From the NCBI GenBank assembly GCA_001557505.1, contig LSAX01000008.1, positions 186,001 to 250,000 of the forward strand: a stretch of DNA of 64,000 bases. The letters are read 5' to 3'. This DNA comes from Reticulascus tulasneorum. Its lineage: Eukaryota; Ascomycota; Sordariomycetes; Glomerellales; Reticulascaceae. Positions 1,953 to 40,379 of this stretch are shown here, one piece after another; within the stretch, counting starts at the first letter, position 1, and each line of letters begins with the position of its first letter. The notes beneath the pieces were generated by a model. That model saw only the letters and a program-made list of their open reading frames with translations, searched no databases and was not told the origin of the DNA. The position numbers and the translations under genes were made by a program.

Positions 1953-4649
1953 ATGGATCCTGGATCCGCTGCCGTCGCCTTTATCGGGCTGAGTGCCAGC
2001 TTGGTCACTCTTGGAGCCCTGGCAGTGGACGGCTACAACACATTACGAAGGGTGCATACCCGCTTCAAGAATGCGCCCAAGGATGTAGATCGACTGTGCA
2101 GGCAGTTGAAAGACTTGGAAATTCTTCTGGCGGAGATGCAGCTTCAGGTCATGGATAAGCATCATCCCCTTGGAATCCTTCTAGCCAGAGCAGCGGACAG
2201 CATGTACCAAGATCTCTGCAGCCTCAAATACATGATAGAAAAGTTGAAGGGTATACTTGACGCAGCAACAGGGCCGAGGAGGATGATAGAGATCCGAGTG
2301 CGACGTGTTCTTAGCGACGGGGAGCTGAAGGACCTTGGGCGGCTCCTCGACTCTCACATGACACATCTGACCTTACTTCTTGCGTTGGCGAACAGGTGAG
2401 GCTCCTCTCTAGATTTTCCATTTACGCCCGTCTCACATGCGTCCAGTTACAAATTGGATATCATACAGGCCCAGACGTCTGCTCAACGTCGTTTGCCCGC
2501 GGCCGCCATGGTCGAGAGACAGTCTCGGGCCATGGCACGGCCGAGAGTCACCGGTACCGCCAGGAATACGGTTATCGCATCATATCGCACGCCAATGGGC
2601 ACCTTGTTCTCGAATCGAACAACCGAGTCTGAAAGTCCACGGCAAGCTCGGAGATGGAGCAAGCACGGGTTCATATTTGTGCCTCCCAAGTGGTTAGGTC
2701 ACCGCTTCTTGTGCTGGGAAGCTGGTCTCAGATACACGGCCCAGAGGTTCCCCACAATCACCCTGTCTCTGACACCGATATCTTATAACAACGACCCGGC
2801 CCTCAAGCATGCCATTTTCAAATTTGATATTGATGCCTTCCGGGTACTACTCCGCGACGGAAAAGCCAGGCTTTCTGATTACGTCGTTGATAAGCAGCCC
2901 CGAACTTTGCTAGAGGTTTGTGTCGATGAACGAACGGACAAGGTCGGTTCTAAAGGGATGTAGGCTGTCAGCGCACGGGTCCATCAACCGGGCCGCGAGA
3001 AAGCATTGGCTGAGTTCTACGACTTTCTCCTCACCCATGCTAGTTCAGACCTCCCAACAGATCAGTACGTACCGCGCTCTTAGCGCGCAGATCAGTCATT
3101 TTCATGCTTATGATATCCTAGGCTCGAGGCTCACACGAACATCCTGATCTATCTCGTGACAAAGTCTCAACAGCATTTCCAAACCAGCTTGGAAAGCTAT
3201 CTGCGTCACGGTGGCTCACTATTGCAGCACATAGGGCTTGCGAACACACCCTTGACACTCTTGATGCGGCGCGGTGCAACATTCAGTATTATCGAACAGT
3301 ATCTGTTTCGGCAAGCCGAGCCATGGGCTGTCGAGGATCTTAGCTCGATGGATAGGTGGTTAGTTGGGGTTCTTGCCTACGCGAACGAAAGTTTCTTCAA
3401 GGCATTGGGGACGTATCTCAACCCTCCAGTATCTTCTTACACGCGGCAGAATCTGAGGAACCCCCTAGACGCCTTTGCCATTTCGAAAATTGTCGACGAT
3501 GTTGCCTCCGCTGGGGCCCCAGCCAGGTTCAACTTCTACAAGGTGGTTAGCAAATGGGGCACTCGCAAAATGCTGGAGCCTTTTCTGACTGGCGCCTTCG
3601 ATGTGGACGAGAAGCGCTTCAACCGGGGCATCCCGTTCTTAAGGTTGAGCTATCTGAGCAAGGCTGCCAAGTGGGCAAACCCGGATACGTTCGCGCTCCT
3701 TCTTGAAGCTGGTGCATGCCCAACAAGGGGGCTGACCTATTTGTCTCGGTATCAGTGGACGGCCCCCACTGTTTCTATTCACATAAGAAAGAATCTCATT
3801 TTGCAACTTGCTGGCATGGCTTCACCAGATCACGTTGCGGGTGACTCGGAGGCGTACCTTGCTGTTCTGCTTCGAACGGATGAGGTGCGGGATTACAGCC
3901 TTGCCGCTGCAGACGCGCTTATCGAGCGATTCTTTATGACCGCAGGGGACCTCGTTAGGTCAGACCAGCAAGGGGGGCTTCTCAACACCTACATGTTTCT
4001 TGCCATCATTCTCGATATTCCCCATCTTTTGGATAAGCTGTTGTTGCGGCATGGACATCATGTCAACGTAATGGAGCCGATCCCACCCCTGTTGGAGTCT
4101 GACAGAATCGTCATCAGGTCATCCCTGTTGCAGGCCGAGTCTTACCTGGAAATCGCGGTCCAGCAGGCTAATTTGGTTGCGCTCCGTCGCCTGCTGGCTG
4201 AGCTGGACACGTCCGCGGCAGCACTCTTCGCTGTATCCCAAGCAAAGATATCAGCGGAGAAGAATGTATTAGTGAAACACCCGAGAAAGGCCTATCCTGG
4301 GAGCATATGGCCCTGTCAGCCGCGCCCCAGACACGCTACAGCAGAACAGGACGCCGCTATCGTCGAGGCACTCCGTACTTGGCAAGCATCGGTCGGTCCT
4401 ATAGAGCAATTGGGGGCTACATGTTACACGGGCTACGGCCGAAGGACGAAGCGAGAGCTTTTGATGCACGCTCTGGTGACTTTGGGGACAACAAAGGCCG
4501 CTGCGAAGGTACGATCGCTGACAGGCGCAGCAGTGAGCCTGTTGCATTTGAGTTTTTGGGAATCACTACTTCTGAGGGTTATCTTTCTGCTGAGTCTCCT
4601 GATTCTCAGTGCTTTGGAAGCCGCCGAGTTTGTCGTTGGCTTTCTCTGA
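1953..4649 (+). CDS. Fungal STAND-type N-terminal domain protein with ankyrin-like body
   Basis: Four exons splice cleanly: 1953-2395, 2447-2915, 2964-3064 and 3122-4649, with introns of 51, 48 and 57 bp; the product is 846 residues. The start ATG opens MDPGSAAVAFIGLSASLVTL, the usual beginning of the fungal N-terminal domain found before NACHT, ankyrin or kinase modules (residues 1 to about 140, helical). A middle block with FIFVPPKWLGHRF and LKHAIFKFDIDAFRVLL matches the linker seen in fungal ankyrin proteins. The C-terminal half has degenerate ankyrin-like helices (for example DTFALLLEAGACPTRG and DKLLLRHGHHVNV), and the last 50 residues are strongly hydrophobic, possibly a membrane segment or a missed terminal intron. 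Such proteins are often linked to signalling or heterokaryon recognition; the specific role here is unknown. Confidence 0.75.
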
Positions 4650-4833
4650 TAGATACAGTGTATAATACCTAGATAAAACGCACTCCACACAGTGTGGGGC
4701 ACGTCTACTAAGCATCCAACTGCCATTAAACTTCATCCTTCCATTAATTCCTCTGTTATTTTCTTCTTGTTTTCTTCCACAAAATCAACATCAATCGCAA
4801 CGGTAATACCACAACCCACCAATATAAGTCGAG

Positions 4834-6732
4834 CATATGCTAAGTGTACAGATGGCTGCCTAATACAATCACGTCGGCGTCGACGGCGCTGTGAACCCCC
4901 ATCCCGATTATGGTCATTTCCATGGTAAGCATGTGTCAAGCATATGCGACACGTCGCGTTAACATAGAGCAGGCCCAATTGAAAATCCCAATCCCAATTG
5001 GGTTCCTGACCGTAACAGTACCCCGCACATACTACACATATACAGAACACTGATCAAATGCAGACATTGTGCAGCAGCGTGCAGACGCTGAAGCCGAAGG
5101 TCGCCGTCCTCCCCGTATGCTCTCCTCTGTGTTGGGATATGTCCTGCATATGCTGACGACATGCTAGCTGCCGCTGTCACGGCTTCACAGAACAGTACGG
5201 ATCTGCCGGTTAGCATATGCTCGGCACATACTGACGTGTCGCAGATCCTCCCATTCCAGGCGCCAAGCTTTCTGGTGTCAACACTGGAGTGTATGTCATG
5301 TCATCTTTCGGAATGTGTTGAGCATATGCTGACTCTGTGTACAGCTGCGATGTTGTTGTGGCTCCTGGTGTTATGTGTGGCTCGATCTTCGAGAACCAGC
5401 CTACTGTGAGTATAAGCCAAGCACATTCGAAGTATATGTGGTTGACAATGAAAGTTCCGCCGACATATTCGTCTTTCTCACTTTGGTGCTGGTACGTGTC
5501 AATCTGTACATGAGCTCTGCATATGCTGATGATATACCTAGTCCGCAACCCAAGTCGATCCAACATTGACGCCATCGAAACGGCTGCTGGTCAGAAGTAT
5601 GATCTTTGCGCATGTCTAGCATATGCACAGCTAACAACATTAGTGCTATCAAGCTTTGGGTCCGTTCGCAAGGTTGGCGTAATGCTGTTTATGCCCGTGA
5701 GCCTGGGTATATATCTAACATCTACTTTGTATATATATATTAACAATGACAGCTGTGGTCCGCTGAATGGCGTGATTAATCAATATGCGACTGCGATGGA
5801 AAACCTTGCGTGAGTTTACCATGTTCCCAGCATATGCTTAGTACTGACCTGTCTGTAGTCGCATTGATGCCACCTTTCGTGACCAGTATGGTTCTGAATT
5901 TCACCGTGAGGTAAGTACAATCTCTGCATATGCTGTGCTGGTGTTTGAGCGAAGGGATCTACCATTTATTTGCTATTTATCTACTATTTACCATGTTTCA
6001 ATACTGATCCAACTGCAGCCTACGCCGATACATTGACAACGGCGTCGTGTTAGTGCTTCTGCTCGGCATGTGCTGGGCGTCATCTCACCTGAAGTCTTCA
6101 ACAGACAGTGTATAACACCTGTTTCTTTATTGAAGATTGCTTTTGAAACCTAGCACATGTCAAGCTTGGACGATACTACAGTCAAACCAACAATATAACA
6201 TCAACATCCTTAATACCTAATTCCCAACGAATTACCTATTCTGCTTTACATATACTATATTTATATTAAGCAGTCAGATATCAACCTTGGCCAGGCTATT
6301 CCTGTTGTTACTTCGTCCGGTAAACGCAAGGTAATGTCCATGCTACGCATATGCCAGATACACGCTAACCTGACTCCAGCATGGCCCTGACGTGCCTGGT
6401 CGTGGAGGTACTCCACCTTCACCATCTCCCGCACCTGGTATGCGTCCTATGATTGCCCATCATATGCATTGTTAACGTTCAGCAGCTGGTCGAGCTCCGA
6501 AGAGAGGTCGTGGTGCCCGCCCCGCAGCGCAGGCTGCTCAAGGTAAGTATATACTTTCTGTGTGCCTGGCATATGCCGAACTAATGCTTTGCCTAGGTTC
6601 CCGGCGCCTTGTTGCCATCACTTCTGATGATGATGAACTGAACTGAGCATATGCGAAGCATATGAGACTACTGGGATTAGACCAGTGACCTCCTGCCAAC
6701 CAGATTTATACTGGAATGGAATTTGGCATATG
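4834..6732. repeat. Recurrent GCATATGC palindrome, mostly inside introns
   Basis: CATATGC occurs at about 4834, 4941, 5147, 5214, 5323, 5520, 5620, 5831, 5927, 6348, 6461 and 6570, each within a separate predicted intron. All but the 5927 copy lie 11-25 nt before the 3' splice site; the 5927 copy lies in a 108-bp intron, about 85 nt before its end. More copies follow the stop codon at about 6648-6662 and 6726. Several run straight into the branch site (CATATGCTGAC at 5147 and 5323). The palindrome appears only about twice in the other 62 kb that I noticed (near 18101 and 41409). Introns beginning at 5012, 5406, 5707 and 6110 lack it. Confidence 0.85.
4852..6646 (+). pseudogene. Intron-dense gene of unknown function, interrupted by in-frame stops
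   Basis: I do not recognise the family. Consistent exons are 4852-4924, 4973-5011, 5064-5114, 5168-5194, 5245-5290, 5345-5405, 5455-5491, 5542-5596, 5644-5706, 5753-5809 and 5859-5910. A less certain exon lies at about 6019-6109, and 3' exons end at 6330, then 6380-6437, 6483-6542 and 6597-6646. All phases agree, and the joined protein has coherent segments such as HIRLSHFGAVRNPSRSNIDA and KLWVRSQGWRNAVYAREP. The tail is Pro/Arg/Gly-rich (PKRGRGARP, AT-hook-like) and acidic (SDDDELN). A 49-bp leader intron (4803-4851) ends exactly at the ATG. Codon 4 is TAA (4861-4863) and a TGA lies at 6034-6036; both are one C-to-T step from Gln or Arg. The 6110 to about 6270 junction is unclear. It may be a recently inactivated gene, possibly from a mobile element. 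Confidence 0.6.
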
Positions 6733-9565
6733 CCATGCCTGTATTTTAGTTATACCTTGCTGGTAAATTGACCTCATGACCGCTGGCCGTATTGGCGTGG
6801 CATATACGCTACTCATTCTGTTCGTATTGTACTGGTCTGCATGCCTCCTAGTTTGCCAGCAGCTGTTATGCTATAATTGAAATCAATGTTACTGCCTACC
6901 TATGAAGTTTGGGCTTTTGTACGCTGCCAAGATTTTTGTATATACGACTCACTGCGACCCTGTTTCCAGATGCAAAGGCAGTTTCGAGGTCGATGGAGAC
7001 TGCCGATGATGTGCTTCCTTCATGGTGCTTAATATGTCAGTGAAGAGGTTACCTAGCAAACCTAAGTAGCTCGCCATGGGTGACTTCGATTGCTTGATAA
7101 AGTCGTGGACTTTGGAATGTTCAGTCTGCTGCTTCGCATGATTGGGTTCTTAGATATCTTCCCTAAGCCATTTGCTATCGATGGGCACTTCAGTATCGGA
7201 TTAAGACTGTTGAGACGGGCGATATTCCTCGCCCTGAGGAAACCAGCTAAATCCGCAGAAGCAGCTTTCGCATGGACTTCTCTACAATTCGTATGTTCGG
7301 TGTAGCAATTAGTATGGTGTCTGACGCGTTCTCACCTACAGAACTGTTCAGTCCCATGATGAATATCCTGGGGAGCAAAACGACGAGCCGTTGACCAAGT
7401 CCCGCACATAGCAAGGTGTGCTCGGAAGAGGAGCTCTACGAAACCGAGAGAAAATGGGGCGTGAGGTACTTGGGGGAGTTCTCAGATGCGTCGTTGTCAT
7501 GTCTGGTTGTTATAACAGTAGCCTGGCATTTAGTTAGACTGGAATTTGATAGCGTGCCAGGTTAAGGCCACGACGGTGCTAGGACTAGGCACTAAGAGTT
7601 GGGCTAATCATCTAACTACCTTGCCTAGGGTACGTTACTTATCCCATCGGGTGCGGATGGCCCTCGCGCTAAAATGCGTTCCAATTGCCAGCGGTAGATG
7701 CTATATAAATTAGGGGATACAGCTCTGTAACCCCCCACCCTACCTAACACTCCTCTGCAGCTTGCCAGTCGAGGAACAGCAGCAGTTCAGTGTTGCACAG
7801 CATCTGTTCTGCCCAGTTTTAACCTGCGCAGCGCCACGCCCAGATAGGTATTGGCTGGACGTCTCCACTCCTCCACTACTCTTGCCCCGGGTCGGGCCAG
7901 GAATTACCAGGTGGTCTTTCAGTGGCCGAGCTCGCTAAATGCCCCGTAGGAGTAACTGACCAGTCTCATTGTAATTCGCTAATATCCCGGCTTGGTACCT
8001 CTGTGGGTCACTCGAGGGGCTACATTGGTTTATCAGTTCTCCGTCATATTGGGATCACGTTTGTACCCTTGGACGGCTTTTCGGAGGGGCTCCACGCCTT
8101 CGAAACGTAGCAGCTCGTATTGTGTCTCGAGATAAATGGCCTTGTTGGCTGGAGGAGCCTTGACATTATTTTCGGGAGGCATGGTGGCTTGGTGGCTTGG
8201 CCAGCCATGATCTCCTCGGACGTAGGTATCTCAGGGGAGGCACACCATGCTTGCTTGGTCGACTTGGACAGTAGATGGCCATGGCAGATTGGCTCAGAGC
8301 TTATGTTGTGGCCCTTTCACTCTCTACAGAGACCGTCGTTAGCATGTATGGAATATCAAAGTATAGGAAGCGCGACATACACATGCTGTGACAATCGGTG
8401 CACTCAACTACACCTTAAAGGACAGCTGAGGGATTGGACTAGAAGAAGAGGACAATGGAGACGTCGATGGATCGTAGGAAAGGAGGAGAGCTTGAAGGGG
8501 TTTTTGGCCCGGGGGGGGACTATGATCGCGAGATGGTGATTAGCTGTGCTCTCGAGCGATAGCTTCTCTGACGTTTGACGATCGGGCGGAAAGGAAGTAA
8601 TGGATGGGAGAAGGCGGAAGTCTTCTTAAATGACAGGAATAGAGCGGCAAAGGGACATGGCGAGAAAGAGGTAGGTACAGAAGCGGTACGCAGACGTACC
8701 TTCTGAGAGCAAAGTCGGGGAGGATCGAAATGATTGAGGTCTGGAGACGGGGGTAGACGCAGCTTGTAATCCTCCAGATTGGTAATATCTTGAAATCGGC
8801 CAATATGTGTAGGCGCCTCATGATCGCTGTGAAGCGCCACATGCACACCAGCTAGGCGAGTACGGTGGACGAAGTCGCCTGGCCAGCAAGGCAGAACGCC
8901 TGGAGACAACGAGATATCGCACTCTCAATGGCGAGCTGGATGCTTCCGGTATCGCCAGAAAACATGGCCGGTCATGGTCGATCGCTCAGAAGTTCCACGG
9001 GGGAGCTGTCCGCCACTTGTGCTGTCAAGTATCCTCGCTATCTGTCACCTGCTCAGCCTGCTTCTGCCATACGGCACAGTCACGTTTCTGGATGGAGAGC
9101 GGCTTCACTCGCGACAACGTGCCCACTGACCACGTCGGCATAAAACTGGTCCAGCCCTTTTGCGTAACACGTCGATCGACCAGTCGTCAGAGATGGCATA
9201 GTACATGACGATAGAAAGGATACGGTCGGTATCTCTTAGTCATAGCATCGATACTATCCACCCTAGCTCAGAGAATACGACAAAGGGGACTGACTGCTCT
9301 TGTTTAGAGGCTCACTGTACCTTATATCGACCTCACTGATGTACCAAACAGGAATATTGGCCAATTACGATTGTCAATTAACTTAATGCTATACGACATC
9401 TAGCGGGTTTAGCCACTGAATGACCATGTTATTCCCGGGAATTATAAGGGACTTGGCACTAATTTATAGAGCCTCTACCGCTCGCAATAACGAATTTTAG
9501 CGGGGACCATGGTGCGGGGCGAGTACAACAGTGAGCCTGGAGGTCCACTCGCACCGGAGGGGATA
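6650..9565. other. Decayed non-coding DNA
   Basis: No supported gene. Short AT-rich frames are broken by many stops. A 20-base word at 8819-8838 recurs at 17447-17466. A run of nine or more G lies near 8510. Confidence 0.5.
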
Positions 9566-9569
9566 CACT

Positions 9570-10910
9570 CGGCTGATATGTCAATTATTCTGAGCGGCTT
9601 CTGGTGGCCGATATGAAAAATTCGCATGCCTATGCCGTCCTCATACTTTCGTGCCGCTGCTCTAGAGCGAATAAGGTAGTTGTAGTAGCCTCAAACGTGT
9701 AGCGGCCCGCGCATTCGTGCGGCAAGTGGCAGGATGTACCACGACGCACCGAGATCCTGCTGGTCGAGGAACCACAGGTGGCCTTGAACAGACGACTGCT
9801 CACAGACCCATCGTACGTAGTCATGGGGGATTTGGATTTTATATAGCCAAGCCTTGGTGGACGGTGACAGCGAGGTCAGCGGGGACGGGCCGTTCAAAAA
9901 ACATATTTAACAGAAACACGGGTATATAGATGACGAGTGATGTAGGCTACAAGCTTGGCTGATATGAGGGAGTGACTACCAATACCGAAGACGCTATTGG
10001 TGATCCTGACGTCCAAGCCAAGCATATCAGCGAACTCGCACAGCGCCACTTCTTTGTTACCGGGAGCCACGCGTGTATAGACCAGCTTGGTCTTGAGAAC
10101 GGTCTTGGCCTTTCGAGCGAGCCTTTTCCGGCCGACCTTGCCGTTGGCATTGATTGGGATTTGGTCTAGTATCACAATCTTTCCGGGCACCACTCGAGCA
10201 ATGCTTGCAGTCGTTCACGGGTCTGTGCCTCAAGCCACCGACGATGCGTTCCCACGATCGACCACCTTCGTGAATAGGTGAATAATGATGGAATACAGTA
10301 TCGAATGCGCCGTGTTGGAACCACTACCTGGCCCAGCTGATCTCGACACTGAAGCCAGCCTCGCAAGCTATATGAAAGAGGGATGCGCAACGGGCGAGGG
10401 CCAGGCGATTCCATCTAATGAGCCTATCCCGGTCTCGTTGATGTTATCGTCGTCAAGTAACTCGGCAACGTACCGCGCTAGAATCGTTTGGCTATCTAGG
10501 ATGTTTCCGACAGGTACCACCACGACTTCTGACAAACTCTGCACACGAACGATCAGTCCGTATCGGTCCATACACGTCCCAACGAAGTCAATACGGGAGT
10601 TTACGTCGATAGATGCGTAGGCGGTGCACCTTTCTCTGGATTGCCCACGTACACGACGGCTGCGTATCGGTACGAGCTCAGTTCATTCGTGGCTCTCATC
10701 CTTTTTTCGGCAGAACACTAACGTGGTTGCTCCGACCGGGCATTGGAGAATAATGCTGGGTCGACGAGCAGCTCTTCCTCGTGCTCTTCCATCTCTCCCA
10801 TCTTCCGTTGGACACTCTCCTTGTTTGCGTCTCTACATAGCGTATGAAAGCCCTGTCGGCGAAAAAGTCTTTGTTTATGGGATAATGCTATCCAGAATGC
10901 TCTCGGCATA
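9570..10910 (-). pseudogene. Non-ribosomal peptide synthetase fossil (N-methyltransferase, A9-A10, T, start of C)
   Basis: Read on the minus strand, fragments in changing frames line up in NRPS order. The stretch near 10890-10640 gives GEMEEHEEELLVDPALF and then ATNELSSYRYAAVVYVGNP, typical of the N-methyltransferase domain nested in adenylation domains of enniatin- or cyclosporin-type enzymes. It is followed by MDRYGLIVRVQSLSE and NILDSQTILARYVAELLDDD (10571-10400). At 10290-10140 are a VFHHY-like segment, RERLQALL and VILDQIPINANGKVGRK (A10). At 10110-9910 lies a carrier domain with GIGSHSLISAKL, where the pantetheine serine is in the GxxSHSL context. At 9860-9570 lies the start of a condensation domain (LWFLDQQDLGASW and FALEQRHESMRT). 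Several stops and shifts make it non-functional. Upstream modules are absent. Confidence 0.75.
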
Positions 10911-19283: not shown

Positions 19284-21297
19284 TTAGTGCGAGGAGTCGG
19301 AAAACTGGCGATAAGTACCAGTCTGTGTGCCTCCGGTGACATAAAACTGGCGATAAGTATCAGTCTGCGTGCCTCCAGTGACATGAAACTGGCGATAAGT
19401 ATCAGTCTGTGTGCCTCCGGTGACATGAAACTGGCGATAAGTATCAGTCTGTGTGCCTCCGGCGACAAGAAACTGGCGATAAGTATCAGTCTGTGTGCCT
19501 CCGGTGACATAAAACTGGCGATAAGTATCAGTTTGTGTGCCTCCGGTGGCATAAACAACGCTTGGTGCTGCATCGCCATCGTTAGCAACCGCAAGAACCG
19601 ACGAGCTAGGATGTGCAAGATATACCATCATCATCGGAACCTTGCTCCTTCTTTAAAGTAGCGCGTAGCATCGCACGGTGAACCAAGTCGTCATCGGCAA
19701 GTCTGGCGCATAAGCCACCCACGTGGCCGTGTTCACGGCATACACGGCAATTGTGTGAGCTGATTCTGTGGTAGATATCATCCTCAGTCTCGTCCAGTAC
19801 TTTCTGCAGCTCTTCTCGCACGGAGATCGACTCTGGGGATGCCAGATGCTCTTTGAGCTTGTCTAGACGAGTGATGAGATTTCGCAACTTGCAAGCCTCG
19901 AAATCTTTCGAAGGTGGACTGTGTGTCGAGTTGCAGAATTTGCATAGGGTTTTGCTACAAGTACGCTCTATATGGCCATTCTCGTGGCATACAGTACACG
20001 TGTGGTTGGCCAGGGCCGTACGGTGTTCTTCTCTGGCATCCTTGCTCGCTTTCTCGAGGTCATCGATCTTAGACCGGTTCCTGTGTTTTTTAGTAAGCTC
20101 CTGCTTGAGATCATATTCAATCGCCATAATGTTATGCATGAGAGTCTCGATCTTTGCTGTAAGAGCAAGGCGCCGCATTTGACGCTGATGACCTTCACTC
20201 TTGTTTCTGATCTTTTTGTCCTTTCGAATTTCGACCGGACCAGAGCCGTGATCTCCAATATCTGAGCCTGTTCCGGCAGCACTCGTGATTTCCGCAACTG
20301 AATCAAAGATGAAGATGTCCGGAATTGGGTTGAAAGTGACATTTCGAGCGGCACGATCTGAATCTTTGGCTTCATTGAGTATTGAAACTGGTGTTCGGGG
20401 ATGTTTCTGAACTGTAGCAACCTGGGCTGGGGCAACCTGGGCTGGGGCAACCTGGGCTGGGGCAACCTGGGCTGGGGCAACCTGGGCTGGGGCAACCTGG
20501 GCTGGGGCAACCTGGGCTGGGGCAACCTGGGCTGGGGCAATCTGTGCTGGGGAATTACGGGCTGGGTAATTGTGGGCTGGGGGGAGGGTTGGATCGTTGA
20601 GGAGGCTTCCGGAAGCATCTTCAGAGAAAGCATGTTGAGCAATATCCTTTCTCCGAATCTTTTTGAGAGGGCTCCGAGCTTTTTCGTTCTGTTCCCCTTT
20701 TGAACTCTCGCTCTTGACAGATGGCGGGGGTGATTCGATAGCCTTGCGCTTTATCGACTTCAATGTCTTCTTTTTTTCGGCCTTCTCTATGAGACTGGGT
20801 AGGGGTAGAACAATCTCGGGGGTGCCGGCTGTGATACCAGGCGTTGGCACTCGCAGATACGAGTTGAAGATATTAGCATGGTCGTTCGGACTAAAGAATG
20901 AAGATAACCATCCAAACTGACCCCGGGCTATCATCATGTTCATGATTCCTTGTGGAATACTGCCATTCAATGCGTGCATTGCTTCCATCAAATGTACTGG
21001 AGGTTCGCGGTTCACCCAAGCACCATCGGCAACTTCATTCAGCCATTTCGAGAGGTCTGTGTAGACAGGCTCAAGTTGCGATGGTGTACCAGGACCCTTA
21101 TACCGACTCGTTCGGAGGATGATCGACTCAGTGGTGCTGACGATGAAGTCGTTCCAGACAGAACGCCGGATACCATTCAGACCGATGGTGATGATGTTGA
21201 CGAACTTGGCGCCAGATGAATGCTGTTTGAGTAGGTCTTGGATCTCATGTAGAGTAGGTTTACGAGATAGATCTCGCCTGCCTGGCTGAAGTTCCAT
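19284..21297 (-). CDS. CCHC zinc-knuckle protein with two repeat tracts
   Basis: Two exons on the minus strand, 21297-19626 and 19567-19284, separated by a 58-bp intron (donor GTATAT, branch GCTAAC); the product is 651 residues. Residues 1 to about 165 form a helical domain I do not recognise. A basic Ser/Lys/Arg-rich stretch follows, then about nine copies of the pentapeptide APAQV, then a coiled-coil-like segment. Zinc knuckles come next: CTVCHENGHIERTC (CX2CX4HX4C), a half-knuckle CKFCNSTH and CRVCREHGHVGGLC. Reading through the intron donor would stop at once, but splicing opens a tail of seven 14-residue repeats of the type TGGTQTDTYRQFYV. CCHC knuckles usually bind single-stranded RNA or DNA. 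The knuckle/half-knuckle layout resembles that in the helicase at 25469-31576, suggesting related function; this is inference. Confidence 0.75.
19300..19552 (-). repeat. 42-bp coding minisatellite (about 6-7 copies)
   Basis: Near-identical 42-bp units encode TGGTQTDTYRQF followed by a variable dipeptide. They form the last exon of the zinc-knuckle gene. Confidence 0.9.
20409..20559 (-). repeat. 15-bp coding minisatellite (about 9-10 copies)
   Basis: Tandem CTGGGCTGGGGCAAC on the plus strand encodes APAQV on the minus strand. The copies are almost identical, implying recent expansion. Confidence 0.92.
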
Positions 21298-21624
21298 ACT
21301 GGCGTTGAATGGAAACGAGGATTTCGCGAAGAATATGATGGATTATCTGATAGGGGACATGAGGAAGAGACGAGCAGGTTGCAGGGGAAGTTGAGGGAGA
21401 TGAGGAAGAGGAGAGAACGTCGGACGGGAAGTGGAGGGAGGAGGAAAAGGTGAAAGAAACGAAGAGCGAGAATACGGACTGAGTAGGAAACACCAGTGGG
21501 CTGAAGCCATATCGTGTTGAACGAAATGTGAGATTTTCGTGACTTGGAAAAGCTTTGAAAGATTTCTGTCCCGGATCTTGGAACTTGCGCCCCAATAGCC
21601 AGGAACAGAATTAATCTAGTATCC

Positions 21625-22634: not shown

Positions 22635-25246
22635 GAATGCGGACGACTCCAACACTCGCTCGCTGGCAGTTCCATGACTCATGGTGGCACAGCTCCAGCG
22701 CGGCAGTGAATCTGAGCTGCTCGCGGGGTGTTACTGAGAACGCTTCTGATTGTCATCGTCATAACGGGGCGCGAATGTCGCCCGACGATTTTGTCGCGGA
22801 TGCTATAGACGATGCTAGTGTGACAGGAGGAACGCTGACCGTCGATATCGGGCGGCGTCTTGGTGGAATTCAAGGGTGGTAGTCTCTGTCTAACGGATTC
22901 AGCGTTGAATTAGCTACAGGGGCCATATATGAAGCATGTTGTGTGGCCTGGATACCTAGTCTGCAGTGATGCAATGCATGAGTGGTCACATTCAACCTGT
23001 CACTAGCGGACATGTGGAGGCAACACGGGGCTGTTGGGGCGAGGAACGAGTTTGAAGGCGATGATAAAGTGCTACTGGGAGGACTTCAACGGTATTAACT
23101 GCCAAACTCGTACGCTTGGGGAAGACCATTGTCGCGCGAGGGAATCTTGGGTGATGGTAGATGAGGTTGTCGAGGCTGCTGCGCGACAGAAACACGATTA
23201 TAAGAGACCGGCTTGTCGATTGAGGTGGCATCAATTCTTGTCGAATGGTAGCCTGAAAGTAAATTGTAACATCTGGATTCTGGTGGGGGAACTTCGATAG
23301 AGTGGCGCGATGACCACCTATTCTGTCCGACAACTGAAAGTCAAAGCACCGTTATGCACATAACTTTATACTTCACAGCGTTTGGATGGGCGTCTCTATG
23401 CCAGGGTCTGTGCTAACACGAACTTGCTCGGCAAAACTGGTAGTTTATCCAGGGATGATGGGATCCGGAATTGGGATAGCTCTGAGAGGTACTCAAGGGT
23501 GTGCTAGATTTTCCTATGTTCCAAACACGTCAGTACTTACGTTTCCATTGCTTGTCGAATGGTAGGAGGTCGCAATCCATCGGTTCCTTTGAACTTAGGC
23601 TTGTACGAGTGGCTGACCAGATATTCTAGACCCGATGGCTATCCAGAGTCTTTGATGCCGGAGTTGACTGAGACGTTCAATAATCAGGGCGCCTCTCTGA
23701 GGTCTTTGATTTGGATATCGCTGGTAAAGTGGTTGTCATTGGAGATAGCCAAGGCCTTTCCGCTCTTTGCTTCAGCGCCATCGTTTGTGAAACAGGTCAT
23801 CTTTCTTGGTTTTCGGGGGGGGGCAGTTGAGGTTCTGAGAGAGCGAGCCAAGCGATTGGCAGAATAAACAATTAGATTCGGTCTTTGAAAGCAAGCAGCA
23901 GGCAGCAAGGACATGAAGGATCGGAGTATTCCATGGGTCTGTATCTGACAGAAGGGTTAGCATTACTGGTCAAGACGCCACGAAGGGAGGAGATAATGTG
24001 CCACAAGGCATGCTGGCAGACATAGTAGAAGATCACCCATAGACAAAGATCCTTTGCTAGAGTACCGAAAGGCAGAGATTATTGGATATGACCGATGAAA
24101 GATACCGAAAAGTCACACGTACTTGTGAAAATTTATTTTCGGGTGGTGATGGGAGGGAGGTATGATGCTACGATGGCCTGGCTCCGAAAAGGAACTTGGG
24201 TGTAAAATATTCGAAAAGGCTAGGCTCCAAACCGCACCTCCGTAAGCTCTGCGTCACACCCTACTCGTCGCTTCCAATATGACGCTAGGTCAGAGGTCCA
24301 GGGTCTACTTGTGATTTATCTGGTGTACATAGCCGGCCTGTATTCTTTCGCGCCATACTTCCCCATATGCCCTATCTAATCTGGCCCATCTCGCCTCCGG
24401 TTTGGATAATTTCCACCACGGCCAATCTGTCGAAAGAGAAATGTTCGGATCCCATTCGTCCATGCGACGTACAAGTTGCTTGGCAGCCCTACACAGAAGC
24501 AACTGTAATCAAGCTCCCTGTATCTCCACATCGACCTGTCGATGAACAGTTTACTTCGTAGGAATGTTATAATTAGGTACTAAGTTATGCCTTAACACCT
24601 CACATATGGACTGACACTTGTTTCTCTACGGATCGCATTTCGGCCATGTGGCGTTTGACATCAACGTTCTCATCGTCGTGGTCGTATCCAATCGACCTTT
24701 CTCATGGCCCATGTCGTAGAGTCAGTAGACTCGTTGTTCCCGGATGCATCCGAAAGAGTCGTGTTATCACGCGTCGGGTTGTAAATCGCCGAGAGATTGG
24801 CCAACCCCTTCATCGTGGGCCCTTCTGGCAGCACTTGCGACCTCGGGACGGGAATCGACACGAGAGGCAGACCCGAGAGTCCATCTCAGCTTCGCATCTG
24901 CCAGCGATGGGGATGCGGAAAAGAGAATATGCCCAACCAAGCAAGGTGTAGACGTAGCTTAGTTACTATTACCTGGCGGAGGAGTATTTACTTGTTTCTG
25001 TCAATGTCAAGGTATTAGATCAAGGATCTCGCGCGTGTGTTGCGTTCATTGGCGAGCTTGTAGACTCATCACAAGGCACAAAATTTGTTTTTATGGTCAT
25101 TTATTGCCTATGGCATGTGTACCAGCTAACTAAAGAGTAGTGGTGAATCCATGACTATGACCTTTTCCTTTCCTGTATTCTTCTCCGATGACTATTTTCT
25201 CATACTTTTCTGGTGTTGTTTGTGTGACCTGGAATATTAGGGTACC
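22635..25246. other. Intergenic, no supported gene
   Basis: Frames of 60-100 codons occur on both strands (for example 23559-23867 plus and 24305-24502 minus), but none shows a recognisable motif, intron or start context. I would not call them genes. Confidence 0.4.
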
Positions 25247-25397
25247 TGGGGGCATTCTCTCTGGGGGCATTCTCTCTGGGGGCATTCTCTCTGGGGGGCA
25301 GTCTCTCTGGGGGCAGTCTCTCTGGGGGGCATTCTCTTTGGGGGCAGTCTCTCCGAGGGCATTCTCTCTGGGGGCAGTCTCTCTGGGGGGAGTCTCC
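25247..25397. repeat. 15-bp minisatellite just downstream of the helicase stop
   Basis: About ten units of TGGGGGCATTCTCTC with CATT/CAGT variants. It lies 70-220 bp beyond the stop of the minus-strand helicase, in its probable 3' UTR. Read on the minus strand it would encode RENAP-type repeats, but I find no clean splice that joins it to the gene. Confidence 0.85.
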
Positions 25398-25468: not shown

Positions 25469-28400
25469 CTAACCACCGATGTTCGCTCCTAAGTCCAGTA
25501 GGTCGGAATCTACCGATTCTGTAGAATCAACAGAGGACATGTCGGGGTCTTCCTCATCTGGTGGGCGAGTTCTCATTCCCTGAGTTCCAAGTCCGCGAGC
25601 ACTCGCAGATGCGAACGTTCCCGAAAATCTACCACTAGCCGAAACACGATCAACACTGATGGTCGGCGAAACTGACGAGCGGAATGGCTGAAGGCTTCTC
25701 TGGGACGAGATGCTCGGCGTTCGTCCTGCGCTCGGAGTTGATGCCAATGACTCGGACTTATTCTGCTTGGCAAGATTGTCGGATATACCAGCATCCGAAG
25801 ATGGACGTGAGATGCTTGGGTGTACGCCACTTGGTACTCTGGATTCGGCAATGGGAGAATCATTTCGCACGGTTTCTTTGGGAGGCGATGCCGGAAGCTG
25901 ACTCTTTGACTTGCGGCCATCGGTAAAATAGCTGGTGGAACTGTGATGACGCGCCGACGAGTGAAGATACCGTGAGGGGACATATGTAGGGTCATTTTTG
26001 TCTTCGCTGACATCCTGACGCATGTTTGCCTCTCTCTCGCTCTTCTTTTCCATAATCCGACGCGTCATGCTTGATTTCTGTTCACGCCAATCGGTAAACT
26101 TGCCAAGCTTCGAGCCGGCGAACTGACGTCTGGACATGTAGAGTCGGGAAGGATTGTTGAGCACGACGCCGTTTCGTTCGGGGATAGTCGGCACCTTCGA
26201 TGGTCCTGGCGTTTTCTTGAGCTCCTCGAACGTTGTGGTTGCTTTCCGAACGCCCTCATTTGCGTCGTTCTCATTCTGAAGATAGCGGCCCATCTCTTTT
26301 GGCGTGAGGATATCGCTCATCGGCGGAGCACGAGGACAGTTATTATGATGATGGCTACCATAGCAAAGGCCACATCTGGGCATAACCGTGCAGATTCGCT
26401 CCCCGTGGCCAATCTTGAAACAACGCATGCAAGTTTCGGTGCTTCTCTTGTTACGGTCTACCCGGGGGGGGCGGTAGATAGCAGCATTCGTCTGGTAGTA
26501 CTGATACCATTCCCAGAGCTTGTGAGTCAAAGGACTTGTCGTCTTGTTCCGAGTCTTGTCGAAAACGTCAGGATTGAACAGAACAATATGGCCGAGAATC
26601 GGGCGTGTGTCATTGACGTTCAGCCTCTGCGGGTAGCCGATGAAACCTGGGCTGCGACTTCTGACCATGGAAGTGATGACGAGATCTCCCTCAAATGACA
26701 TGGCTGAGTCAATGGTTCGGACTCGAACGAGCTCGTGGACGATTGTCTGAGAAGGAACTCGGCTCAGAAGTTGCTTGATCTTTCGGACTTGCGACTCGTA
26801 AGGTGACAAGATCAGAATCATTGCACGTCTTCCCATGTTCTTGAATGAAGGCAGACCGAACGCATGTGCTCGTATAACCAAGTCCACGACGGCCGTAGCT
26901 TCGTCAGGATTGAAGAAGCTTGTACCCTCTCCTCGCTCGTCAGCCCCATCAACGCACATCATCCAACGGCTTAAGTGACATTCGGGGAAGATGGTCTTGC
27001 TGAACTGGCGATAGATTTCCACAAGCGCCTGCTTTGCTCCGACGGACAGGTCCACGATCATATTTTTCCCGTAAGTTAGCAATTTCGGGAGCATTTCGAG
27101 GTCGCCTTGGAAGCGCAGGGTCGAGCGGAGGACTGACACGTCGACCTCGGCGACTTTGAGACGCCACAAGAGAGGCTTTGCTCGCTGTAGTGAGTGCTGG
27201 GCACCGGTCCATCGGTTGTCCCAGTCTTTGCCTTTGCCTCTGTGAGCATCTTTCGCTGCACAGTAAGGTTGAAGCTGCTCGGCATCTCCGAATATGGTGA
27301 CGTTTGTGGTGAGGAGACCAAATACGATGGAAAGCGAGCTTTCGGTGATCCTTCCGGCCTCTTCGACCATGACATGAATTGGAGCTACATCTTCAGCTTC
27401 TCTCATGAACAGGGCAAGTGAGCAAAACCCGGCTGGAGTAGACACAATGACCGGATGACGCCGAATCCATATTCTGAAAACTGCTTTGATTGCTTCGTTC
27501 AGCGCCTTTCTGCCATCCTTGTCTTGAGGTGGCATGTCGATGGCATCTTGGATGGTATGGGCTAATTCGGAGTCTTGTCCCAACAGCTCCTCAACGATTC
27601 GGACGAGATCACTGAACCCTGTATCGGGTCGCGTGTCTGGAAAGAGCTTGCTGGCCTTCTCTGATTTCTCCTTGTGAGCAGCATTCAGGACGACCTGCAG
27701 AGTGGTGGCGTTAGGTCCCTCCATCACATCGTAGTCATATGTTTCACGCTTGCGCTGACTGAGCCATGCTTTCAATGCTCTCTCAGACCTTCGCACTGAA
27801 TGGAAGCGCAAGACGTTGGCTTGAATGCCCCAGCTTCTCAGATGCTTGAGAATTCCGTCATACGCATCGTCAACGAGCTCGTTCGTCTCGGCAGTACACC
27901 AGACCCTTGCATAACCACGTCCATATGGCAGGCTAGAATGAACTGCTGCTTGATTTGACTCTCCCTGATGGAGATCGGGACCTTTCTGTGGGGGATCGGG
28001 ACCTTTCTGTGGGAGATCGGGACCTTTCTGTGGGAGATCGGGACCTTTCTGTGGGAGATCGGGACCTTCATTGACCGAATAGGCAATCTCTCGGTCGATT
28101 TGGGTGAATCTCAACCCAGAATAGTGATTCAGGTATGGAACAGCCGGGTCGGGATCGCCGGTCGCGTCTGTGAAGATGAAGAGCGAGACGTTGCGCAGCG
28201 AACTGTCCCCATGTGTCGGAACATCCATATACTGGCCATTCGCCCATGCGACAGATAGAGAGATATGTAATTTTCGGAGTCTTCCCCAGTGTCCAATGAC
28301 GACAGCCAACTGATCTACAGAGTAGTTGTTGATGTCATTCTCTATTAGTTCGGGGTCATTCACACCCGAGAACAAGGCCTGGCAGTAATCGTGGTGGCGC

Positions 28401-31400
28401 GACAATCTTAGCTGACCGATCGTTGGAGGGACAATGTTGGGATGCTGTGCGACCATGCTCGAAATCATGGCATAGAAACCACACTCCAAGTTCGTCGACT
28501 CGGTAGGAATCGTCACAAACCGAGACTTGAGCAAGTAGCCATTCTTCGTCAAGTTGAGTGAGTATGTAGGTTCCGCATCCTCTTTGGTCTTGAGCTCGGG
28601 AACATCGCCAGAACCGGACTGTGCAGTATCGCCCCGGTCACCTGTGGTATCGCCCCAATTGCCTGTGGTATCGCCCCAATTGCCTGTGGTATCGCCCCAA
28701 TTGCCTGTGGTATTGCCCCAATTGTCACTCTGATTTACGGGATATTCAAGTGAAGGTGCAGGAGGTTCATCCCCGCCAGTAACATCAGCAGCATCGAAAA
28801 GCGTGGCATGAGGATCTGACAAGGCGCTGATAATCTCTGCGGTTTGGGGATCTTCGGGCCCGTCGTCATTCTTGAGCTTCTTCTCCTTGCGAACCTGTCT
28901 TCGCGTCTTCTTGAAAACTCCAGCCTTCTCCAGCACAGGGATCTCGTCTTGATACGAAGATGCCTCCGCGTCAAGGTCAACACGCTCAGCAAGCATGCAT
29001 CCGATCATGATATCTCGGAGCAAAGTCTTGCCACTACCAGGAGGTCCAGTAACGGCCGAAAACCCTTCTCGAGTACGCTGCAAGCTGGCGAGGGCAGTCC
29101 TTTGATCGGCGTTGAGATCGGAAATTTGCGAATTGAGTATTTCCAGGTGCATGGGAATGTTGTTGATTGCCTTGAAGAGACCTGGATGGATGCGACCGAG
29201 ATCCTTGTGGCTGATGGGTGACTTGAAATTCACCATCCACTCCAAAAGTCGATGCTTGGAGGTTTCATAACCTCCCTCCTGCCAACCATTAAGTCCTTTG
29301 AGCTCGGCCATGGTGGTGGTGTCGTCACTTCGGCGCTTGATTCGCACCTTGAAGCCATCGTTGTCAGATTCTCTGTCCCAAAGATCTCGCTGGACCTCAT
29401 TGGCGAAAGCTTTCGGGTCTGCACGAAATGTGACATACTCGAGACCAGCCAGCTTCATCGGCGGTCGTGCAAATTGGACGGGCCAGTTGCGTTCCACTGG
29501 AACCTTGACGCAGAAGAGTGCAATATCCTCAAGTCGAAGACCACTAGGCTGCTGCATCCGAACTGCTCTGCATGGGATGCCATCTGGACCGAAATCGAAG
29601 TCTGGCATTCGAAGCATTTCCATGTTCTCTTTGATCCACTCGCGTACTCGAGTTTCGTATGCATCCATGGTCTCTTTCCACTGTTTGACATTGTCCGACT
29701 TCCGCCGAAGAACTTCTAGTGCATCTGACGCGGTTGACTTGAGCATGAACTCTTCTTGATCTAGTCCAAGGGTTGCATCATATCCCTTGAGCTCATCCCA
29801 CGTCAGGTTCAGTTCGTCAAGATCATTGCGACCAAGTCCCTGAATATTGATGAAGTCCATGAGCATATCGCCAACATTCGATTCCCATTCCTCCTCGCAG
29901 TCTCCATATACCGAGGTGAAGTGCATGATTCTGCGTGAAACTTCCTGCACGAGTTCATCTGACTTTTCCTGCTCTGTCATCTTCGCTCGAACTTGCCTGG
30001 AAACTGTAGTTTCGGCGCCAATCGTGCTGTTGCCATTGTCTGCTGGTGCCGATCGTGGCGTTGGAACGACTGAAGGCCCCAGGTAGATGATGCATGGTTC
30101 TCCAACTACTGGCATGCAGTCCCTGTACTCGTCAGGCATGTTCACGGCAAGGAAGAACTCGCGAAGTGTTCCATCCGGCTCCATTCCATAGTTCTTGTCA
30201 TCTGGCTTCCATGCGGATGTGGGGAATGGAAAAGCAGCTGCGTCAATCTCGTCGAGCAACTCCCAAGCTCCTTCCTTTCGTGAGTCCTCCAGTGCAAGCT
30301 CCTCTCTTGCTCCGTAATGCAGGTTCTTGATGAACTGCTTTCGGTTTGCAAACAGAGCAACGGGAGGGATTGGTGCGTTGGCTAAGGGCCATTGATGAGG
30401 CTCGAAAGAGCTCTTGGTGCTCAGGACTCCTTTTCCTCGAACGTTGGAAGGAAACCACGCTGAAAGGTTATCCGAAATCGCAAGATTGAGGTAAGTGAAC
30501 ATACGACCCCGAATGAACTTGGCCCCTTTCTGAGGGAGAAGAAGTTGCAGGAGAATATCACCCTTTCGCGTCATTAGATCATGAAACTCATCCAACGAGG
30601 CTCGCAACTCTGGGTCATTAAGTTCTCCAATCTGGGCGCATGTGTCCTCCCATGCCTGCTTGTGCACAATAAGTAGTGCCTTTTGGGTGTCAACGTTAAT
30701 GCTCATCACCCATCCACTGACGCATTCTGTTGCGTTCGGGCATATTTTCTGTACCATCGCCAGAATCTGCTTGTCGTTGGCATCGAAATCTCGAATCGAC
30801 CCCTTTTCCTTCGAATGAACAGGAAGTAGTGCAGTTGTAGGGATGTCCCACGAGAAGAACTTATGTCTCTTGCCAGTCGTCCGAAAATAACTATCCACAC
30901 AGATCCGTGGGATATCATTTTCCGGTGTGTTGACGGAGATTTCGTGACGGAAACCCCATGAGCTCAAGCTTGTCTGGCCGATGCTTTTGAATGATTCGGA
31001 GGAATATCGCGCGAACTTGGAATTGATGGCGATCAGCCCAGAAATGATGGGTGACTTGGCTTTCGTGGGAATATCATTGTCATATCGTGGGACTGGAACA
31101 ATGTATTCCTTGTCGCCGTCTTGACACACATTCCCGCCTTCAGGCTCGACAGGATTGAACGGATCGTTCTCTTTGTTGTCACCCTTGGCTTCTGTGTCTT
31201 TCCACGGATCTTCGGCAACATTGCCTTGGGTCCGATCACCGGATTCTTCATTCTGGGTGCCCCATCCTGCATTATGGTTGACGTCGACTCGTGCCTGATA
31301 ACCAGTTTCTTCATTCTGGGTGCCCCATTCTGCATTCTGGCTGCCCCATTCTGCATTCTGGGTGCCCCATCCTGCATTCTGGCTGCCCCATCCTGCATTC

Positions 31401-38038: not shown

Positions 38039-40379
38039 ATGTCGGCCGACAACCAAACCCCAGCTCTGGTGGCGGGTGCAGGCGCAGGGTATTCCCCTGT
38101 GCTTGTACCTGCTGCCAGTTCGAACAACCGCCCCCCCCCACAGGTTCAGTTCTTAAATGAGCCCACCATTCGATCGCGTCCCTGGTATATGGACCCAGAC
38201 CTGCTGAGCGGACCGTGAGTTTGTTGTCGCATTCGATCTTGATCGAGCTGACTGACATGACATTGATAGGCACCTCGCAAATCAATATCCCAGACACTGG
38301 AGTGCCTCTCGCATCTACTCTCGCTCTCCTTCCTTTGAAAGCTTACGCGAGTTGCTCTTGGAAGGTGATGCCATTGTCATGGCACTAGACTTCGAGACAT
38401 TGTGCAAACAGAAGTTGGACCGCGGAAAGCGATACAATCCAATTCTCGAGATCGGAATCTCCACTTTAGATCTACGTCAGATTCGTGACGGAATCGTCTC
38501 TGGAGGAACTGCTTCCAGGAAAGCCAAACACACGGCTGCCGGCCCTGAGTACTCCTCAGGGCTGGCCCCTCCCCCCACCCCTCCCCCCTCGTACTCGTTT
38601 CCTCCAAGCCTCGACCATCCTGGTGACCGTGGCACCAACTGGCGAAGTCGAATCACCTCCAGCCACTATATCGTGGATGAGTACAATGATCATTATGGTG
38701 GTGGCTGTCAGAAAGCATGGGAGCACAAAACCGCGCCATACAGATTCGCGTTCAAAAAGAGCAAGATCGTGATCGAAAGTCAGCTCCTTCCTTTCCTGGA
38801 ATGTCGATAGGATGACATTCGGAAGATGGGGCGTACACCCGAGGAGAAGAGAATCAATACGCTTCGTCGCGTCATCCTCTTGACATGGGACAGCAATTTA
38901 GAAGAAGGTCAGATGGAGCGATTGGGAATGACCATGTTCTCGGATGACGATGTTATACCATGGGATCTACAGCTGCACCATGTTCTCCAAGCGCGCTTCG
39001 AACGAGATAGAATGAAGGCAGAAGAAGCATGCAAGGCGTTGGGAGTTCCGACGAAATGGCAAGGCTCTGACGAGGATCTTCACCATTGTGCTGGAAATGA
39101 TGTCGCGTTCACCATGGAGATGTTCCTTGCGCTGGGTCTACTCGACACGATACAAATGGAGACACTTCTGCATGGGGGTGACCTCATCATGCTCAAGAGC
39201 ACAATCAACGGATACACTGCCAACCAAGTCAACCAGCCGATGGCACCGCCCAAACCCAAGGCTGGCGCACCACACACACGCCGCCGGGCACCCAACCCGC
39301 CCCTGGCCGGTGAGTTTTCCTCACTGGTCAGCGCGGTTAGGGTGCCGCCCCCCACCCCTACCTTCACATCCACATCCAACCCCGCCCTGGCCGGTGAGTG
39401 TTCCTCACTGGTCAGTGCGGTCGCGGTGCCGCCCTCGACCGAGAATGATGAGTTCATTACCTTCAAACTTCCATTCGAGGCAGACATGAAGAAGGAACTC
39501 GTGAGAGAGATATACAAATGGGTTCCGGAGGGATGGAAAGTAAAAGCACATATTGGTGAGGTGAAGATTCGCAAGACGGAGGTACTCGCTATTTTCAGCG
39601 ATCATCTCGATGAATTTGTCAAACTCCTGATGGGCCAATGCCAAGAAGACTTCATCCGCGTTTTACGTGATCACCAGAGTACATCACAGCCTGAGGTAAG
39701 CAATGCCAATTTCCTAGCGATGATTCCTTCAAGCACTAACTTTCATGCCCAGACACAACCACCATCTGGCCCCGTCCGGCAGGTGCTCCCTGCTGGACGG
39801 CCCAACTCGGTCCAACCTCCTGTTCGCAGCAATTCGCAGGTAAGCAATGGTAATCTCTCATTGATGAACACTTCTATCGCTGACTTTCATGCCCAGGCAC
39901 AACCACCAACTGGCCCCGTCCGGCAGGTGCTCCCTGTTGGACGGCCCATCTCGGTCCAGCCTCCTGCTCCCAGTAATTCGCAGGTAAGCAATGGTAATCT
40001 CTCATTGATGAACACTTCTATCGCTAACTTTCATGCCCAGGCACAACCACCCTCTGGCCCCGTCCGGCAGGTGCTCCCTGATGGACGGCCCGATGGGGTG
40101 AGTGAGCCTGTTTGGAGGGATCTGCAGAGGTATGGCATTGAAGTAGTGGACGGTGTTGTGAGGTTCAGAGTGCCTCCCGGGCAGAAGTGGATCCCAGAAG
40201 ATTGGCGTGAGGAAGGCTGGAAGTACGGTGAATATTGGGTCAATATTCCAGCACAGGAGTTCTTCGATTACCCCAAGTTCCGTCATTTCTATGGCATATC
40301 ACGCTCTGAGGACAGAAATGCGGCTCGTCAAGCGACAAGGGACCAGGACGATTCCGATAGTGGACCCGACGAGCTCTGA
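38039..40379 (+). pseudogene. DEDDh (Gfd2/YDR514C-like) exonuclease gene with one in-frame TAG
   Basis: Exon 1 is 38039-38214 and exon 2 begins at 38270 after a 55-bp intron; the frame then runs to 40379 with a single TAG at 38808-38810 (codon 239). Exonuclease motif I is MALDFETL (Asp98, Glu100), followed by PILEIGISTLDL. Motif II is probably LLTWDSN (Asp266), and motif III is HCAGND (His331, Asp336), a good HxAxxD. The stop thus separates motif I from II and III; a 238-residue product would lack the catalytic set. Three further 57-bp introns (39696-39752, 39840-39896, 39984-40040) lie in the 3' repeat region and are stop-free, so both splice forms stay in frame. The C-terminus has a conserved-looking WIPEDWREEGWKYGEYW block. 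Either a fresh pseudogene (CAG to TAG) or a gene rescued by A-to-I editing of UAG or by readthrough. Confidence 0.75.
39696..40127 (+). repeat. Triplicated exon-intron unit (3 x 144 bp)
   Basis: Each 144-bp unit is a 57-bp GTAAGC...CCCAG intron with CTRAC branch site plus an 87-bp exon encoding QPPxGPVRQVLPxGRP and a linker. Unit starts at 39696, 39840 and 39984 are exactly 144 bp apart; all introns are phase 0. Confidence 0.88.

Follow-up and report, generated by a model that had tools for sequence, protein, structure and literature searches.

Palindrome-centered arrays at an 11-bp pitch in the introns and 3′ flank of a single fungal gene: candidate sites for a DNA-binding protein

Introns are usually regarded as unconstrained in sequence save for their splice signals. 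Short units at a constant pitch that are bound cooperatively, like the arrays described here, are found in plasmid iterons and in the met-boxes of MetJ, but those examples come from bacterial and plasmid origins or promoters rather than from eukaryotic introns. The MORE element ATGCATATGCAT of animal POU factors contains, as a palindromic dimer site, the same 8-mer GCATATGC that is the subject of this study, though POU factors are animal proteins whereas the present locus is fungal, and we know of no 11-base-pair (bp) array for POU/MORE sites. By analogy of design, the nearest known system is that of Arabidopsis VANDAL transposons: the targets of VANC21 and VANC6 are reported to carry a short motif (YAGTATTAY for VANC21) in intronic, intergenic, and terminal noncoding parts, coding probes are devoid of it, and the motifs, often tandemly repeated, are recognized in double-stranded DNA by a protein that the element encodes (PMC5735166, PMC10398659). 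Here, we describe arrays built around the palindrome GCATATGC in the introns and 3′ flank of one predicted gene of the ascomycete Reticulascus tulasneorum, within a 64-kb stretch (contig LSAX01000008.1, positions 186,001 to 250,000; hereafter the window, from whose first base all positions are counted) of a 42.8-Mb genome of 35 contigs. Control sequence amounted to 264 kb (about 0.6% of the genome), except for pattern searches, which ran genome-wide; introns are predictions, both at the locus and in the two comparison sets; and several tests rest on the same 15 sites, so that individual p values near 0.01 carry little weight.

The palindrome does cluster, in a way particular to this locus. The window contains 15 copies of GCATATGC, of which 13 fall within positions 4833 to 6733, whereas dinucleotide shuffles of the whole window gave a mean of 0.97 copies and a maximum of 5, with 15 reached in none of 100, which bears out the excess within some 1.8 kb for which the locus was originally singled out. 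Genome-wide there are 900 copies in 42.8 Mb, and pairs of copies in three spacing ranges occur at 16 places, of which 11 belong to this locus and the other five are single places (gaps of 86 to 116, six places, four at the locus; 55 to 85, five places, three at the locus; 186 to 216, five places, four at the locus). No other interspersed 8-mer in the 264 kb was equally clustered per 2 kb, the next best reaching 7 copies, in minisatellite regions, against 13 here. A DNA search of the genome found the locus to be single copy, the DNA of the gene matching itself only, and 11 of 12 matches in a protein search of the genome were the gene's own exons, the twelfth having E = 0.69. In titles and the opening parts of abstracts of the open-licence literature, no such motif is described for GCATATGC in introns, and none of these links "11-bp periodicity" with introns.

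The copies avoid coding sequence. Our best model of the gene has 15 introns, 12 of which have a single CATATG each (GCATATGC in 11 of them, TCATATGC in the other), in agreement with the twelve motif-bearing introns among about sixteen that the original prediction had counted. Three further CATATG copies lie 3′ of the stop codon, at 6647, 6658, and 6726. None of the 15 copies between 4801 and 6740 is exonic, though exons make up about 40% of this interval (chance probability 5e-4, a figure computed with two intron ends a few bases off the final model); the statement that the palindrome falls almost only in introns therefore stands as far as exons are concerned, but not for the 3 of 15 copies beyond the stop codon. 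Whether the palindrome is equally frequent in introns at large was checked on a sample, and there it is not: CATATG is present in 4 of 103 strictly predicted and 10 of 395 loosely predicted introns elsewhere, compared to 12 of 15 at the locus.

Beyond the palindrome itself, the rest of each intron had been described as not conserved, which is wrong, as the introns as a set repeat a weakened form of the motif at an 11-bp pitch. Degenerate GCATATGC-like copies stand 11 bp upstream and 11 bp downstream of the sites, matching on average 4.27 and 3.93 of 8 bases against a background of 2.00 (none of 5,000 flank shuffles; 4.15 and 3.85 when the pair at 6647/6658 is omitted). Two-unit arrays matching at least 12 of 16 bases have 23 starts between 4000 and 8000, 20 of them intronic, three in the 3′ flank, and none in exons or the 5′ flank, and are present in 13 of the 15 introns, introns 10 and 14 excepted. 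In the 14 short introns, base-identity autocorrelation reaches 0.373 (lag 11) and 0.400 (lag 22), with other lags from 2 to 30 at 0.19 to 0.30; shuffled introns averaged 0.256 at lag 11, none of 2,000 reaching the observed value there and none of 300 reaching it at any lag from 2 to 30. The shuffles for the flank-offset, array-score, and autocorrelation tests kept base content, not dinucleotide content. Exons of the gene show no 11-base periodicity (0.217 at lag 11, with the top lags 6, 12, 3, and 21 at 0.30 to 0.31, as in coding DNA), and the 103 strictly predicted introns elsewhere give 0.253 at lag 11 and 0.255 at lag 22, the locus value being reached in none of 5,000 draws of 14. Taken singly, 10 of the 14 short introns fall in the top 5% of those 103.

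The pitch extends to the three introns that lack CATATG and were not used to find it. Intron 3 (5012..5063) has the degenerate array GCACATAC-tac-ACATATAC at 5025-5043 (two units, 12/16, p = 0.001 in 3,000 shuffles; three units, p = 0.011), intron 7 (5406..5454) has the three-unit array GTATAAGC-caa-GCACATTC-gaa-GTATATGT at 5410-5439 (18/24, 0 of 3,000 shuffles; two units, p = 0.0003), and intron 10 (5707..5752) has the weak three-unit array GTATATAT-cta-ACATCTAC-ttt-GTATATAT at 5707-5736 (15/24, p = 0.001; two units, 10/16, p = 0.025). Arrays at an 11-bp pitch matching at least 13 of 16 bases number 13 at the locus versus two elsewhere in the 264 kb, and the locus has 1, 0, 0, and 1 such arrays at pitches of 9, 10, 12, and 13. 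Genome-wide, two units at the 11-bp pitch with at most two mismatches occur at 21 places, four of them at the locus, and with a spacer one base longer at 28 places, none at the locus, so that the 11-bp pitch is a property of the locus and not of the genome. Short introns and a predicted gene model do leave some freedom of choice, but chance or a compositional artefact has a practically negligible probability, given that shuffles, other introns, exons, other pitches, and genome-wide searches all fail to reproduce the pattern.

The arrays of the remaining introns, all on the + strand, can be given individually. The introns of about 50 nucleotides (nt) comprise intron 1, in the 5′ leader (4803..4851; ATATAAGT-cga-GCATATGC at 4822-4840), intron 2 (4925..4972; GCATGTGT-caa-GCATATGC at 4929-4947), intron 5 (5195..5244; GCATATGC-tcg-GCACATAC at 5213-5231), intron 6 (5291..5344; GAATGTGT-tga-GCATATGC at 5311-5329, fused to the branch site CTGAC), intron 9 (5597..5643; GCGCATGT-cta-GCATATGC at 5608-5626), intron 11 (5810..5858; CCATGTTC-cca-GCATATGC at 5819-5837), and intron 13 (6331..6379; GTCCATGC-tac-GCATATGC-cag-ATACACGC at 6336-6365), along with three-unit arrays in intron 4 (5115..5167; GGATATGT-cct-GCATATGC-tga-CGACATGC at 5135-5164), intron 8 (5492..5541; ACATGAGC-tct-GCATATGC-tga-TGATATAC at 5508-5537), and intron 15 (6543..6596; CTGTGTGC-ctg-GCATATGC-cga-ACTAATGC at 6558-6587). 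Intron 14 (6438..6485, with its acceptor at 6482 or 6485) carries TCATATGC at 6460 and hardly forms an array (10/16). The 363-nt intron 12 (5911..6273) has an array at 5915-5944 around the GCATATGC at 5926 and a second one, GCTTCTGC-tcg-GCATGTGC, at 6055-6073; between them, at 5957-5990, stand 3.1 copies of a tandem 11-bp unit, ATCTACTATTT, which is unrelated to the palindrome unit but equal in pitch. Its lag-11 value is 0.44 in the first part and 0.35 in the second, and we count 6019-6273 as weak because lag 14 equals lag 11 there (both 0.35).

Past the coding region, an array adjoins the stop codon (6647..6665; GCATATGC-gaa-GCATATGA, at a pitch of exactly 11 bp) and another lies at 6726..6744 (GCATATGC-cat-GCCTGTAT), the flank from 6647 to 6760 giving lag-11 and lag-22 values of 0.37 and 0.36. 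A weak array follows at 6789..6807 (GTATTGGC-gtg-GCATATAC), in a stretch, 6761-7000, that overall has no 11-base periodicity (0.25 at lag 11). The 5′ flank (4650-4802) is not counted because lag 12 (0.37) rivals lag 11 (0.38) and no array reaches 12/16. Repeats between this flank and intron 12, among them 4655-4670/6105-6120, looked like chance.

We tentatively favor the view that this gene, in its introns and 3′ flank, carries an iteron-like set of candidate sites for a sequence-specific DNA-binding protein, a reading that is quite possible but well short of secure. DNA is preferred over RNA as the thing recognized because of the 11-bp pitch, the copies past the stop codon, and the lack of excess RNA folding. 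The perfect 8-bp palindrome would act as a high-affinity nucleus, and further molecules would bind the degenerate copies, which a spacing of one helical turn (11 bp) would place on the same side of the double helix; coding constraint may keep such sites out of exons, which would leave them in the noncoding segments. Protein bound along the gene body could then set a chromatin or transcriptional state, through autoregulation or protection from silencing. The genome has two clear cytosine-5 DNA methyltransferase genes (C34:1811968-1813122 and C25:1644350-1645222) and a weaker match on contig C16, which makes silencing and its avoidance possible settings, as repeat-induced point mutation (RIP) or DNA methylation may occur in this fungus. 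The likeliest binder would be the product of the gene itself, to judge by a weak C2H2 zinc-finger match and an AT-hook-like basic tail. A bolder form of the proposal, and one we consider doubtful, is that the host gene marks itself, its noncoding segments being a helically phased operator bound by its own zinc-finger/AT-hook-like protein, so that introns would serve as DNA addresses for autoregulation or anti-silencing and not as RNA signals.

Several observations weigh against the DNA-binding proposal. Introns 1, 5, 9, and 14 are each within the range of other introns in their periodicity, and the sites of different introns have no common helical phase (p = 0.22). On dyad symmetry of the flanking units, assessed for 13 of the 15 sites, two measures disagree: the profile of the upstream units fits the downstream units better when mirrored (16.4 bits versus 8.9 bits direct), while simple base identity is greater in the direct orientation (0.375) than in the mirrored one (0.298). 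After masking of all units matching at least 5 of 8 bases, lag 11 still stands at 0.322 (388 base pairs compared), and part of intron 12 has the same periodicity with its unrelated unit; both of these fit a relic of repeat expansion, considered below, better than DNA binding. The zinc-finger match, at 12.1 bits, is under the Pfam cut-off of 25.2 bits, and an in-frame stop at codon 4 means that the predicted protein may not be made as modeled. Finally, in the 11 short introns concerned the motif is closer to the branch site than expected if it were placed at random between donor and branch (p = 0.0008; for intron 1 the branch position was assumed), an effect that DNA binding by itself would not predict.

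That last observation leads to an explanation at the level of splicing, in which an RNA-binding protein would read GCAUAUGC in mid-intron beside the branch site and co-regulate the removal of most introns of the gene. Yeast Mer1, which acts via an intronic enhancer, is a model for such co-regulated splicing. The single copy in each of 12 of the 15 introns would suit it, as would the position of the motif, which, as originally stated, ends 11 to 25 nt before the 3′ splice site in 11 of the 12 CATATG introns; in the twelfth (5911-6273), it starts 15 nt past the 5′ splice site. To place the motif in the branch-site zone was accordingly fair, yet in introns of some 50 nt the vicinity of the branch is also roughly the midpoint. 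Of the fusions to the branch site, said to occur in several introns, two are exact (CATATGCTGAC, at 5147 and 5323), with CATATGCTGAT at 5520; in three introns the last C of the motif also belongs to the branch consensus. Three of the 15 copies, however, lie 3′ of the stop codon, where they would be unlikely to serve intron splicing, and a strict palindrome at helical pitch would not be explained by a reader of single strands. Nor is folding above that of shuffles: the energies of flank plus core, summed over the 12 introns, are not lower (upstream p = 0.17, downstream p = 0.91), intron 2 alone folding below its shuffles (p = 0.005), and whole introns have a mean z of +0.24 compared to +0.08 for the 103 introns elsewhere, with no excess stability. 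An RNA hairpin with a three-base loop was entertained and rejected; flank and core can pair in 66 of 90 cells versus 35 expected, but the energies are not under those of shuffles, and since the unit is a palindrome this pairing restates the 11-bp repeat. Wobble (G-U) versus anti-wobble (A-C) changes count +16 versus +6 upstream and +11 versus +11 downstream. We regard a splicing element as unlikely, and of the original suggestion of a binding site that controls splicing we retain the binding site, as the best-supported reading, with DNA favored over RNA as its substrate.

The arrays might instead be a relic of intron birth: a tandem repeat of 11 bp would have spread or grown inside a single gene and come to be spliced out, with the 8-mer as its best-kept unit. 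Such an origin would account for the 11- and 22-base periodicity, including that of introns without CATATG, and for its persistence at 0.322 after masking; the other unit in intron 12 and the excess of direct over mirrored identity between the two flanking units (0.375 versus 0.298) are likewise in its favor. The gene is also the intron-densest stretch of the 264 kb, with nine predicted introns per 1.5 kb against six for the next best, and repeat expansion is reported to have created introns in Cryptococcus (CNN00420; PMC2395259). Yet a single CATATG core in 12 of 15 introns is not expected from the decay of an array, the similarity stops short of the splice sites, and the arrays also occur 3′ of the stop codon and in one gene only. 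Similarity between units is no greater inside single introns than across different ones (p = 0.25; for spacers, p = 0.49), making recent slippage inside each intron unlikely. Duplications at the intron boundaries are also lacking, with a mean repeat of 1.8 bases at the locus compared to 2.08 in the 103 introns elsewhere. Taken together, we judge a relic to be somewhat improbable. The more specific idea of introner-like spread, which the original prediction had raised, is not supported: what the introns have in common is the array, whose distance to either end varies, rather than a similarity reaching close to both splice sites, and instead of copies in many genes there is one gene, which holds 11 of the 16 motif pairs and whose DNA matches itself only. 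The missing target site duplications are not diagnostic here, since the ascomycete introner families of one study are described as having neither target site duplications nor terminal inverted repeats (PMC9860276).

The 11-bp spacing finally invites comparison with RIP, as the 11- or 12-bp spacing that the arrays share with RIP homology recognition is a striking coincidence. If RIP senses homologous triplets 11 or 12 bp apart, the introns could supply each other with 11-bp-spaced homologies and so act as a homology-pairing signal. The Neurospora work does describe detection of triplets interspersed at 11 or 12 bp, but it also indicates that known effective homologies span hundreds of bp, whereas the arrays here span about 30 bp, and that another spacing outdid that of 11 bp in a test region of 100 bp (PMC4858203). 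The presence of at least two cytosine-5 DNA methyltransferase genes in the genome is in keeping with such a signal; on the other side, the arrays share no register between introns (p = 0.22), and the RIP indices are ordinary (0.80 and 1.33, versus 0.65 and 1.25 for the window). We consider a RIP signal highly improbable.

The gene itself is known from its predicted structure. Fourteen of the 15 introns are 46 to 54 nt long and one is 363 nt, all with GT-AG ends, and a branch-like YTRAY 5-mer stands about 8 to 12 nt before the 3′ end in 13 of the 14 short introns, intron 1 being without one. The coding exons are predicted as 15 pieces on the + strand (4852-4924, 4973-5011, 5064-5114, 5168-5194, 5245-5290, 5345-5405, 5455-5491, 5542-5596, 5644-5706, 5753-5809, 5859-5910, 6274-6330, 6380-6437, 6486-6542, and 6597-6646), which join into a single frame from the ATG at 4852 to the TGA at 6644-6646 with one internal in-frame TAA. 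This TAA, at 4861-4863, is codon 4, three codons past the ATG, after which the frame is open to the stop; the gene may have been broken recently or may begin in an unrecognized way. Codon-use scores over the 15 exons, some with provisional ends, rank the chosen frame best in 10, tied in one, and beaten in four; exon 10 contains the first stop of an alternative frame that has none from about 4910 onward. An automatic splice-path search gave paths in another frame and was replaced after frame-by-frame coding scores.

In the predicted protein, residues 85-104 match zf-C2H2 weakly (E = 0.29), a Pfam search finding nothing further, and a basic tail, PKRGRGARP, resembles an AT-hook by its sequence; no solved structure matched the protein. 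Predicted proteins of the locus found no match at E ≤ 10 in the protein collection, but a helicase control also found none at E ≤ 1e-20, so that the lack of homologues says nothing and the novelty of the protein cannot be judged. That control comes from the same window, where a 2035-codon open frame on the − strand (25469-31576) contains AAA_11 and AAA_12 helicase domains; its residues 1200-1700 have no relative at E ≤ 1e-20 in the collection, which apparently contains no close fungal relatives.

A search of 2500-10500 found no inverted repeats that bracket the gene as a mobile element, and a place in Starship cargo is not indicated: matches to DUF3435, the captain-type domain, comprise seven pieces, found only on contigs C2, C12, and C17 and none on C34, the contig of the gene, with stops inside one of the two on C2, both on C12, and none of the three on C17. 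As an observation in its own right, 30-nt inverted repeats, 90% complementary and 1745 nt apart, stand at 7684-7713 and 9459-9488 and are possible ends of a small DNA transposon. The window is also rich in minisatellites (19301-21440, 25246-25396, 27970-31551, 39736-40091, 49845-51630, 55987-56707, and 59854-60031), mostly inside long open frames and with units that are mostly multiples of three (15, 21, 42, 57, 81, and 144 bp, among others).

The introns of this gene have in common a helically phased pattern that is missing from its exons and from the sampled introns elsewhere, and in the searches made such clustering was found at this locus alone. If the pattern is a protein-binding array, introns can serve as a distributed DNA operator; if it is a relic of intron birth, it would be a rare snapshot of how a short repeat gave rise to introns inside a single gene. 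Each possibility touches on why some genes turn intron-dense and on what introns encode.

Compared to described systems, the locus resembles each in part. Introners are likewise introns of one genome that share sequence, yet they are reported to be similar nearly to both splice sites and to have many genomic copies, whereas the introns here share the array only and belong to one gene (PMC9860276). The sister stwintrons of Hypoxylaceae are likewise described as related and internally symmetrical ascomycete introns, but they are highly similar nested introns at many loci, in contrast to the simple introns of about 50 nt that here have only the array in common (PMC8469720, PMC9024468, PMC12403724). 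Membership in the VANC family fails because the locus is no multicopy transposon, being a single-copy fungal gene and not part of a VANDAL/MULE family with VANA, VANB, and VANC genes; unlike in VANC targets, moreover, its unit is palindromic, degenerate, and set at a fixed 11-bp pitch with two to three units per intron, and its binder is only a candidate. As in the VANC targets, however, the motif is confined to noncoding parts, with none of 15 CATATG copies and none of 23 two-unit arrays in exons, and its organization is tandem, by way of degenerate units repeated every 11 bp.

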